Source: Halarchaeum nitratireducens
GTDB taxonomy: Archaea; Halobacteriota; Halobacteria; Halobacteriales; Halobacteriaceae
NCBI RefSeq assembly: GCF_014647155.1
Contig: NZ_BMOQ01000004.1
Span: 62,001 to 126,000 of the forward strand
DNA: 64,000 nt
Reading direction: 5' to 3'
Shown here: positions 53,977 through 57,042 of the stretch, piece after piece
Layout: every line of letters starts with the position of its first letter
Numbering within the stretch: position 1 is the first letter of the stretch
Program-made: the position numbers and the translations under genes
Notes under the pieces: model-generated
The model's database searches: none
Told to the model about the DNA's origin: nothing
The model's input: the letters and a program-made list of their open reading frames with translations, nothing else

Positions 53977-55002
53977 TCAGGGGCGTTCGGGGAGCGTGCC
54001 CTCCCGGGCACGTTCGTACGCCCGGATTGTCGGTTCGTCGAGTTCGACGAGGTGACAGAGCGGATTGCCGGGGTAGACGACGGGGTTCTCCAGCACGCCG
54101 ACGAGCAGGCCGTCGAAGGGCGCAGTGACGCGCACCGTCTCGGTCTTGAACGGGTTGGTGATGGTGCAGACGACGTCGCCCTCGCGGACGAGCTCGCCGC
54201 GGTCGTGGAGCATCTCGACGAGCCCGCCGGCGTCCGCGCGCAGCCACGTCTTCTGGTCGCGCGAGACGACCGTGCGCCACCCCGGCCAGCGGACCGGCTC
54301 GGCGGGGTGGCAGTCGTACTCGGCGAGGACGGACGCGACGCCGTCGAGCGCGCGGTCGATGAACCCCCGCTCGAAGCGGTGTGCCTGCCCCATCTCGACC
54401 GTGATCGTCGGCGTCCCGCCGTCGCAGGCCGCGCCGCGGAGCGATCCCGTGGGGCCCGCGCCGTCGATGATGACGTTCGAGCCGAAGGCGCGCGCGAGGC
54501 GGGCGATGTCGGGGTCGTCCATGTCCGCCCGGACGTGGAGCATGTTGGTCCGTCCGCGCGTCGACGTGTGGAAGTCGAGGCCGTAGTCGCAGGGTTCGAT
54601 GAACTCCTCATAGAGACGGACGGCCATCCGGTCGGCGCTCGTCCCGGTTTCGCTCCCCGGGAACGAGCGATTGAGATCCCGGTCGTAGACGGGGAGGTAG
54701 CGCTGTTGGGCGATGAACCCCGGGACGTTGAGGACGGGGAGGCAGACGAGCGTGCCGTGGAGGTTCGCGTCCGGCCAGTCCTGCGCGACGGTCCGGACGA
54801 CCTCGATCCCGTTGAGTTCGTCGCCGTGGATGGCGGCGGAGAGGAAGACGGTCGGGCCCGGCTCCGCGCCGTTGCGGATCGTCACCGGAAGCCGGACGGG
54901 GTCGCCGAGGTACGTCTCGCTGATGGCGTACCGGAGGTTCCGCGTCTCCCCGGGCTCGACCCGCCCCTCCGCGTACGTGAACGCGCCGTCGCCGTCTGCC
55001 AT
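53977..55002 (-). CDS. AstE/AspA-like succinylglutamate desuccinylase family metallohydrolase
   Basis: A 341-residue zinc carboxypeptidase-fold protein. The metal ligands lie in LSAAIHGDELNGIEVVRTVA (His59, Glu62) and FHTSTRGRTN near residue 143; DRDLNRSFPGSETG near residue 107 supplies the substrate arginine. The C-terminal 100 residues contain a biotinyl-like barrel (VSRDQKTWLRADAGGLVEML, GELVREGDVVCTITNPFKTE). This form, AstE domain plus a barrel, is common in haloarchaea. It is divergent from a RimK-like ligase fused to a protease domain. Succinylglutamate breakdown is unlikely without other ast genes; cleavage of a peptide-like amide made by the ligase is a guess. Confidence 0.87.
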   Translation of the reverse strand: MADGDGAFTYAEGRVEPGETRNLRYAISETYLGDPVRLPVTIRNGAEPGPTVFLSAAIHGDELNGIEVVRTVAQDWPDANLHGTLVCLPVLNVPGFIAQQRYLPVYDRDLNRSFPGSETGTSADRMAVRLYEEFIEPCDYGLDFHTSTRGRTNMLHVRADMDDPDIARLARAFGSNVIIDGAGPTGSLRGAACDGGTPTITVEMGQAHRFERGFIDRALDGVASVLAEYDCHPAEPVRWPGWRTVVSRDQKTWLRADAGGLVEMLHDRGELVREGDVVCTITNPFKTETVRVTAPFDGLLVGVLENPVVYPGNPLCHLVELDEPTIRAYERAREGTLPERP

Positions 55003-55156
55003 ACTCGCCCTCGGGTCGGCGCGGGCATAAAGTGGTGGGCCACGCCGACGCGCGGCCGGTCGCCACCGGGGCGAGCGCCGACCGTCGTGTCTCGTCGCCA
55101 CGCACTGCCGTCCGCACCGGCACCGTTTTGCCGGGCGCGAGGCGAACTACGGGACA

Positions 55157-56509
55157 ATGACCGACGATCCCGTGACCGTCGGGGTGCTGAGCCTCCACAC
55201 GAGCAGGGAGACGAAAGCGATCCTCAACGCCGTCGAGGCCCTCGGCCACCGCGGCGTCTGGCTCCGCGAGGAGAACCTCGGCGTCTCCATCGAGGACGGC
55301 GAGGCGACCCTCGAACCCGACGTCGACGTCGTGGCGAACCGCCTCCTCCTCTCGAACACCGAACAGCCCTGCGAGCTCCTCGGCATCGCCACCACCCTCG
55401 CGCGCCTCCGCCCGACGCTGAACGAGCCCCGGCACGTCCTGACGGCGTTCCACAAGTTCGCCACCGCCGCGGCGCTCTCGAACGCCGGCGTCCCCGTCCC
55501 CGACGCCTACCTCGCGCTCAACGCCGATCGGATGAACGACGCCCGCGACCGCTTCGGCGACGAGGCCGTCTACAAGACCGCGATCGGCACCCACGGCGGC
55601 GGCACGTGGAAGATCGGGCGCGACGAGGAGGTCAACCCCGTCGTCGGCGAGCGCTACGCCTTCCTCCAGGACCTCATCGAACGCGACTCGGACGCGCACG
55701 CCGACCTGCGGATCTACGTCGTGAACGGCGAGGTCGTCGCCGCAATGCGGCGCTACGCCCCGGAGAACGACTGGCGGACGAACGTCGCGCTCGGCGGGGC
55801 CGTCGAGGGCATCGACGACCTCCCCGAGGAGGTCCGCGACATCGCCGCCGAGTCCGCGGAGGTCGTCGGCCTCGATTACGCGGGCGTCGACGTCGTCGAG
55901 GGCGACGACGGCTGGTTCGTCCTCGAAGTCAACCCCACCGCGGGCTTCAAGGGGCTCTTCGAGGCGACGGGCGTCAGTCCCGCCCCGGACATCGCGCGCC
56001 TCGCCATCGAGGAGGCCGGCGGCGCGGTGGACGACGAGACCGTCGCGGCCCTGCGCTCGAACCTCGATACGTCGACGCCGCGCGGGATGCCCCGGCGGGC
56101 CGTCGAGGCGTCGGAGCCGGGTCGCGTCGTCGGATACACGGAGGAGGTCCTGGTATCGGGGACGAGCGGCACCGAGCGCATCGTCTCGAAATCCGACACG
56201 GGGGCGTCGCGGACCTCCATCGACACGAAGCTCGCGGCGAAGATCGGCGCGGGTCCGATCAAGTCGATGACGAGGGTGAAGTCGGGGAGCGTGAAGTCCG
56301 GGAAGTCACGCCCCGTCGTCGACATCGTCGTCGGCGTCGGCGGCGACCGACACACCGTCGCGGCCTCGCTCGAGGACCGCTCGCACATGGACTACCCGCT
56401 CCTCCTCGGCCGCGACATCCTCAAGCACTATCAGGTGGACGTCACGCGGCGCTTCGAGGACGAGGCGGCCATCGATCAGGACGAGGAAGAAGAGGAGTCG
56501 TCGGAGTGA
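55157..56509 (+). CDS. RimK-like ATP-grasp ligase fused to a retropepsin-like domain
   Basis: A 450-residue fusion. Residues 1-90 form the pre-ATP-grasp domain (MTDDPVTVGVLSLHTSRETK...). Residues about 90-300 are ATP-grasp: DEAVYKTAIGTHGGGTWKIG near residue 135, VVAAMRRYAPENDWRTNVAL near 194, and VLEVNPTAGFKGL near 255 with the metal-binding Glu and Asn. Residues about 310-440 resemble the COG4067/RimK-linked aspartyl-protease domain: KSDTGASRTSIDTKLAAKIG with DTGAS at residue 347, and HMDYPLLLGRDILKHYQVDV near residue 410. RimK-type enzymes add glutamate to proteins or cofactors. The tail is acidic and likely disordered. It is divergent from the AstE-like gene. Confidence 0.88.
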   Translation: MTDDPVTVGVLSLHTSRETKAILNAVEALGHRGVWLREENLGVSIEDGEATLEPDVDVVANRLLLSNTEQPCELLGIATTLARLRPTLNEPRHVLTAFHKFATAAALSNAGVPVPDAYLALNADRMNDARDRFGDEAVYKTAIGTHGGGTWKIGRDEEVNPVVGERYAFLQDLIERDSDAHADLRIYVVNGEVVAAMRRYAPENDWRTNVALGGAVEGIDDLPEEVRDIAAESAEVVGLDYAGVDVVEGDDGWFVLEVNPTAGFKGLFEATGVSPAPDIARLAIEEAGGAVDDETVAALRSNLDTSTPRGMPRRAVEASEPGRVVGYTEEVLVSGTSGTERIVSKSDTGASRTSIDTKLAAKIGAGPIKSMTRVKSGSVKSGKSRPVVDIVVGVGGDRHTVAASLEDRSHMDYPLLLGRDILKHYQVDVTRRFEDEAAIDQDEEEEESSE

Positions 56510-56535: not shown

Positions 56536-57042
56536 TCACTCGGGGAGGTAGAAGTCCGACTTCGGGGGTCGGCGGTGGCCGCCGTCCCGGCGGGCGACGA
56601 TACCGGGGCCGCGGTGGCGGACGATGACGACGTCGTAGGCGTCGTCGGCGGCGACGCCGCTCCCGACGCTGCTCAGCGACGTCACGATGAGTCCGGCGTT
56701 CTCGCTGCCGACGAAGACGAGCGCGGCGTCCTCGGCGTGTGCGATCCCGCGGATCCGGTTCGCGATCGTCCCCGACGGCGCGTACCGGTCGACGACGACG
56801 TGGCGGAAGTCCGCGCTCGGGCACGTGTCGGTGAGTCGCGTGTGGAGCCGGGAGACGACGCGATCGAGGTCGAACTCCTCGTTCGGCTCTAGCCAGCCGC
56901 GCTCGCGGGCGTACTCCGCGTTTCCCGTCGGGATCACGCTCACGGCGAGCACGTCCTCGTCGAACGCGTCGCCGGCCTCCGCCGCGCGGGCGAGCGCCGC
57001 CTCCGCGAGCGGCAACCCGTCGAGGGGCACGAGAAAGGTCAT
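56536..57042 (-). CDS. Universal stress protein-like protein
   Basis: A 168-residue UspA-fold protein. It opens MTFLVPLDGLPLAEAALARA, the family's first strand and helix, and ends with a nucleotide-site-like stretch ALVFVGSENAGLIVTSLSSV then YDVVIVRHRG near residue 138. The G-x2-G-x9-G-S/T ATP-binding signature is imperfect, so it may not bind ATP. It has a 20-residue C-terminal tail (GPGIVARRDGGHRRPPKSDF). It is convergent with the RimK-fusion gene. Confidence 0.82.
   Translation of the reverse strand: MTFLVPLDGLPLAEAALARAAEAGDAFDEDVLAVSVIPTGNAEYARERGWLEPNEEFDLDRVVSRLHTRLTDTCPSADFRHVVVDRYAPSGTIANRIRGIAHAEDAALVFVGSENAGLIVTSLSSVGSGVAADDAYDVVIVRHRGPGIVARRDGGHRRPPKSDFYLPE

Follow-up and report, generated by a model that had tools for sequence, protein, structure and literature searches.

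A haloarchaeal RimK-type ligase fused to a RimB-type retropepsin, with an AstE-like neighbour, probably forms a reversible glutamate-tagging system

A gene that joins a ligase to a protease, and that diverges from the gene of a zinc hydrolase, raises the question of what these three activities would do together in a haloarchaeon. The locus lies in the window, by which the whole analysed stretch of 64,000 nucleotides from Halarchaeum nitratireducens (contig NZ_BMOQ01000004.1, positions 62,001 to 126,000) is meant. A comparative-genomics study reportedly described bacterial neighbourhoods of RimK ligases, COG4067 proteases and AstE-like enzymes as possible peptide-tagging systems. The initial annotation of the window took the present locus for its best candidate for an undescribed modification system, with writer and cleaver in a single protein and a possible eraser next door. 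The two genes, here called rimKB and astE (Table 1), are separated by 154 bp, and a GCATAAAG motif by the astE start and CGTTTTG by the rimKB start recur in the Halarchaeum relatives L032 and L033, a resemblance that was recognized by eye and is weak as evidence.

Table 1. Features of the rimKB-astE locus (positions within the window)
Feature	Position	Strand	Remarks
AstE/aspartoacylase-family zinc hydrolase	53977..55002	-	341 aa plus stop, ATG at 55002, PF24827
Divergent intergenic region, probably two promoters	55003..55156	.	shared motifs, by eye
rimKB: RimK-family ATP-grasp ligase with C-terminal RimB/RloA-type retropepsin domain	55157..56509	+	450 aa plus stop, ATG start
ATP-grasp ligase domain, ~residues 1-290	55157..56026	+	K100, K140, D245, E257, N259 invariant; predicted fold
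Variable linker, ~residues 291-330	56027..56146	+	low conservation, 0.41 for residues 286-330
Retropepsin domain, ~residues 331-432	56147..56452	+	PF05618; K345, D347, T348, G349, A350, R385, R408 invariant
C-terminal glutamate-rich tail, residues 433-450	56453..56506	+	last letters DQDEEEEESSE; tail statistics, 81 orthologues

The domain composition of RimKB was determined from profile matches. The ligase half is recognized by the Pfam RimK model (85.6 bits, residues 99-280), and the protein scores above the cut-off of the NCBIfam rimK_fam model TIGR00768 (150.5 vs 143.4 bits), for which the distant copy L144 is marginal (143.0 bits). The relatives of this half in the PDB are RimK, LysX and ArgX. 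The protease half is matched by PF05618 Zn_protease, the RimB/RloA retropepsin family (37.7 bits vs a cut-off of 27, residues 367-433), which was found in 30 of 30 fusion members checked, and it aligns with the profile of unfused RimB (hhalign 94.9%) and with the RloA-type 'zinc protease' structures 9g58/9g59 and 2pma. The RimB equivalog NF052261 gave no reported match at E 0.1, and the best of the RimB and RloA1-3 equivalog models, RloA3, remained below its cut-off (39.3 vs 210 bits). In the AlphaFold model of full RimKB the ATP-grasp half is good, with LysX/ArgX 5k2m as the best fold match and RimK 4iwx as another, and the protease domain has a pLDDT of ~30 (40 when modelled alone); the homology of this domain is therefore based on the Pfam, hhalign and PDB-profile matches, and its low-pLDDT model was left out of the fold search. 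The fusion does not stem from an assembly error, since a near-full-length orthologue occurs in 98 of 117 genomes that are relatives of the window's. The single protein proposed by the initial annotation is thus real: the open reading frame has exactly the coordinates given there, the DTGAS motif starts at D347 as had been placed, and a RimK ligase is followed by a PF05618 retropepsin.

This domain composition, the company of AstE across almost all haloarchaea and the glutamate tail of the fusion make it probable that RimKB and AstE form a reversible glutamate-tagging system. The explanation that we favour, with moderate confidence, is that RimKB is an ATP-dependent writer of glutamate chains with a built-in polyglutamate cutter, and that AstE finishes or recycles its products. 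RimKB would act as a writer and trimmer of alpha-linked chains: its ATP-grasp half would activate a C-terminal carboxylate with ATP and add glutamates to a protein, a peptide or a glutamate-ended cofactor, and its C-terminal half, as a predicted retropepsin dimer, would cut glutamate runs, so that a single polypeptide would determine the chain length. AstE, the zinc hydrolase encoded divergently, would most likely serve the same pathway, either in taking off the last glutamate(s) or in hydrolysing short RimKB products.

According to Little et al. (2025; PMC11957791), RimK must serve other functions in organisms that lack S6. Bacterial S6 (PF01250) was searched for in the window's genome and is absent, so the canonical RimK target is lacking there. 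RimKB stands outside the S6-ligase class of RimK by its equivalog score, its clade and this missing substrate. Its score with the S6--glutamate ligase model PRK10446 is far below the cut-off (63.8 vs 331 bits), and in the tree the haloarchaeal ATP-grasp domain forms its own clade, apart from both the S6-type RimK of operons and the archaeal LysX-like paralogues; the donor amino acid could therefore differ from glutamate. The main rival to the writer-cutter explanation is a small-molecule pathway, in which the product of RimKB is a polyglutamylated cofactor or short oligo-glutamate, in the manner of the MptN, CofF and methylofuran polyglutamate ligases that act on cofactors, with the retropepsin half and AstE trimming or recycling the chain. 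The absence of S6 would suit such a pathway, and MptN is the second-best NCBIfam model for RimKB. The substrates of AstE-family enzymes, moreover, are small N-acyl amino acids. RimK is able to make free poly-alpha-glutamate and is stimulated by RimB (PMC11957791), and among coenzymes there is one whose polyglutamate side chain can reach 24 residues (PMC8141765). However, RimKB scores far below the cut-offs of MptN (122 vs 350 bits) and CofF (57 vs 300 bits), and RimB needs runs of five to six glutamates for cutting, which is long for most cofactor tails. This pathway is therefore regarded as possible but rather unlikely.

The writer-cutter explanation requires both active sites, and their conservation was determined over 81 sequences, for which 80 named haloarchaeal orthologues were fetched. 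In the ligase half, the two ATP-site lysines (K100, K140) and the three Mg ligands (D245, E257, N259), aligned to E. coli RimK, are invariant in 81/81, as are the DTGA context with the catalytic D347 and the residues K345, R385 and R408 in the protease half. The loss of the DTGAS aspartate across orthologues, which the initial annotation had named as evidence that would refute its reading, was not seen, and both active sites are intact in all orthologues. The retropepsin RimB of Pseudomonas fluorescens cleaves polyglutamate with six or more contiguous Glu. K345/D347/R385/R408 of RimKB correspond to K46/D48/R114/R137 of Pseudomonas RloA. In the published model of RloA the polyglutamate is contacted by K46, R114 and R137; R114A and R137A affect cleavage most strongly, and mutants of D48, R114 or R137 show no complementation (PMC12239564). 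The spacing of the two arginines is 23 residues in RimKB, RloA, Methanosarcina-type RimB and Acaryochloris RimB. With the catalytic aspartate and the three basic residues invariant and this spacing the same, the protease half has the look of an intact catalyst fitted for chains of glutamate. Compared with RimB, however, its segment from the aspartate to the first arginine, before the flap region, is shorter by ~23 residues.

This shortening is one argument for an improbable alternative, namely that the protease half is regulatory and not catalytic, binding polyglutamate and stimulating the ligase as RimB stimulates RimK, a second role that RimB indeed has (PMC11957791). However, D347, the DTGA positions and the two arginines essential in RloA are all invariant, and a catalytic aspartate is not expected to persist in a purely structural role. 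At the first of the glutamate-contacting arginines, R-x-P replaces RP in some extra RimKB copies. A 188-aa protein from a Methanosarcina-family genome (L132, 1372-1938, minus strand) also scores with PF05618 and has a HELEH-like motif without DTG; many weaker PF05618 matches (profile 25-138) in a sample of 393 genomes of the phylum may belong to the same group.

The relation between the two genes was investigated in the 117 related genomes. A close AstE orthologue is present in 98 of them, and the presence or absence of rimKB and astE agrees in 115 (97 with both, 18 with neither, and one discordant genome of each kind); the Fisher test for co-occurrence gave p 5e-19, which is not a true probability, as the genomes share ancestry. 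The survey of co-occurrence in haloarchaea that the initial annotation had proposed thus makes AstE a co-evolving partner. The 18 genomes without both genes are scattered over about a dozen genera, and the co-loss of AstE could stem from a single deletion of neighbouring genes. In one genome, the sole such case of 117, an AstE that is 69% identical was found without RimKB (L161, G027:C35:132000-145000; genome 86% complete). Among the 64 haloarchaeal loci with full flanks, AstE adjoins rimKB in 60, while the gene that comes next, sdhC of the succinate dehydrogenase genes, occurs in 38; where this SDH synteny is lacking, AstE is kept in 22 of 26. These neighbour counts come from BLAST of defined genes, as automatic ORF clustering was swamped by overlapping high-GC ORFs. 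The linkage of AstE and rimKB is not random, and the random neighbourhoods that had been named as speaking against a system were not encountered.

The order and orientation of the two genes are kept also in Natrialbaceae, where ~3 kb lies between them (L044, L054, L062, L091, L094, L099, L102, L106 and L109). Twelve further loci were fetched, mostly extra RimKB copies elsewhere in their genomes; AstE is adjacent in two and absent for ten extra copies (L142-L146, L149-L153), which show 47-63% identity and have no AstE within the fetched flanks. Among the 393 genomes, reading frames of sufficient length for the fusion were confined to the order to which the window belongs. PF05618 also occurs in Haloferax volcanii. 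The universal-stress gene beside rimKB (56536-57003) does not look like a member of the system, as BLAST gave no match to it in any of the 64 full-flank loci.

It is highly improbable that RimKB is an ordinary LysX/ArgX-like enzyme of amino-acid biosynthesis with an irrelevant neighbour, since, despite the fold match to 5k2m, it scores 112.3 against the equivalog cut-off of 275.6 bits, the genome has a separate RimK/LysX-like paralogue in its own clade (G000:C1:37711-38607), LysX has no retropepsin, and the AstE link is not random. LysX/ArgX of the LysW system resembles RimKB as an archaeal RimK-like ligase, which adds an amino acid to the C-terminal glutamate of a carrier, and differs by the absence of a protease domain.

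The divergent gene encodes an intact hydrolase of the AstE/aspartoacylase family, as had been read from the sequence. AstE_AspA_cat scores 155.5 bits, and the HGDE, DLNR, DFHT and EMG motifs (zinc HxxE...H, arginine and catalytic glutamate) are kept in essentially all of 72 orthologues. Its PDB relatives are the DoeB/aspartoacylase-type structures 3cdx, 3na6 and 6twl, and it stays below the equivalog cut-offs of DoeB (82.7 vs 402.7 bits), aspartoacylase (30.5 vs 180) and AstE (25.9 vs 305.65). The barrel that had been assigned to it is plausible, the basis being a Biotin_lipoyl-like match at the C-terminus that is below the cut-off (14.0 vs 22.1 bits). The designation as a possible eraser does not stand in the same way: the demonstrated eraser in bacteria is RimB itself, and AstE is therefore more likely a finishing or recycling enzyme. 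The window's genome contains a second AstE homologue (54%; L168, G000:C5:190043-191023), and one PF05618 domain was found there.

Neighbourhoods of RimK, COG4067-type and AstE-like genes were verified directly in bacteria and methanogens. The genes are unfused and form a tight rimB-rimK-astE operon in Methanosarcina-type genomes, and they are also unfused, with varying gene order, in Vibrio, Salinivibrio, Acaryochloris and Phaeobacter plasmids. The operons of Methanosarcina relatives and marine bacteria bring together the same three enzyme kinds as the haloarchaeal locus, but they are unfused single operons whose RimK is the S6-ligase equivalog (480 bits). The haloarchaeal AstE also stands apart from the AstE of these operons in the tree. 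The trio may have assembled more than once, or be ancient and diverged; repeated assembly, if it occurred, would argue for a functional link. Several trios of methanogens and Vibrionaceae (L157, L159, L162, L167 and L183) lie near genes for MscS-type mechanosensitive channels, MgtE/CorA, CNNM or Usp, which suggests a role in osmotic or ionic stress and fits the osmotic-stress role of the Rlo proteases. The Vibrio, Salinivibrio and methanogen L159 trios differ in this respect from the haloarchaeal loci, where linkage to mechanosensitive-channel or Mg-transporter genes was looked for and not found.

Comparison with characterized systems indicates how far the haloarchaeal locus is new. The RimBK hybrid of Desulfotalea psychrophila (DP2392) unites, like RimKB, a RimK ligase and a RimB retropepsin in one polypeptide, and its protease was proved active on polyglutamate; RimB and the hybrid both cut polyglutamate in vitro, and RimBK did not glutamylate the RpsF tested (PMC11957791). 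In this hybrid, as in those of Thioclava and Aureibacter, RimB is N-terminal, whereas in RimKB it is C-terminal, shortened, joined to an ATP-grasp domain of a different clade and accompanied by an AstE partner and a glutamate tail. Two bacterial RimBK hybrids examined here have an N-terminal RimB, no AstE neighbour and no such tail. Judging from these differences, the haloarchaeal protein is apparently an independent fusion in reverse order. The word 'undescribed' in the initial annotation consequently needs restriction: RimB has been characterized as an endoprotease of polyglutamate, and a hybrid of RimB and RimK has been known since 2025 (PMC11957791), though with the opposite domain order. 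The published RimBK survey covered bacteria only, with hybrids mainly in Flavobacteriales and Rhodobacterales (PMC11957791); archaea are not mentioned in the main text of either 2025 paper (that on the hybrid being PMC11957791), and a literature search for archaeal and haloarchaeal RimK found no paper on haloarchaeal RimKB and no biochemistry of an archaeal member. Pseudomonas RimABK likewise combines a ligase with a polyglutamate endoprotease, but from separate genes, with RimA as a partner and S6 (RpsF) as the target. Pseudomonas RloA-RloB-RloC shares with RimKB a retropepsin with the same K/D/R/R set and an ATP-grasp protein (PMC12239564), and is unlike it in having a secreted protease, the membrane partner RloB, no fusion and no AstE.

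The glutamate tail of the fusion is a feature that is new here. Among the 81 orthologues, 97.5% end in E and 80% in EE, and in 86% four or more of the final eight residues are E, a proportion that remains 82% for the 17 lineages left after reduction at 80% identity. The corresponding values are 17.7%, 0.6% and 2.3% in a background of 310 proteins predicted from the same genome (called crudely over 400 kb and the window), and 15.5%, 1.4% and 0% among the AstE proteins encoded next door. Over the last ~15 residues the sequence varies and the glutamate richness stays. The longest glutamate run is 2-5 in 79 of 81 tails, at or below the RimB cutting threshold, and RpsF, a known RimK acceptor, also has an encoded glutamate end (DNADE, GDSEE); this makes the C-terminus of RimKB attractive as both acceptor and substrate, and its own tail is possibly one candidate target. 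Alternatively, such an acidic end could be an ornament of a halophilic protein. A bolder reading, which we consider doubtful, is that RimKB is a self-priming and self-trimming tag enzyme, whose own tail would be extended by the ligase and cut back by the protease domain past ~6 glutamates. The length of the chain, or oligo-glutamate released into a pool, would then report glutamate/ATP or salt status in haloarchaea, and AstE would recycle the products. The near-universal E-ending tail on an otherwise variable C-terminus speaks for it; against it, terminal E is mostly kept in the extra copies but four more distant ones (L144, L152, L153 and L155) have no tail, and the access of the tail to either active site is an assumption.

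Summarizing, the haloarchaeal locus bears on a question raised by Little et al. (PMC11957791), namely the role of a RimK/RimB-type system without bacterial S6. The RimKB system is near-universal in its order, including genetically tractable species, occurs without S6, is fused and has a third co-evolving enzyme. Should the writer-cutter explanation hold, reversible polyglutamylation would become known from archaea, together with an independent writer-cutter fusion in reverse order and, in the glutamate tail, a built-in candidate substrate that is open to intact-mass spectrometry.
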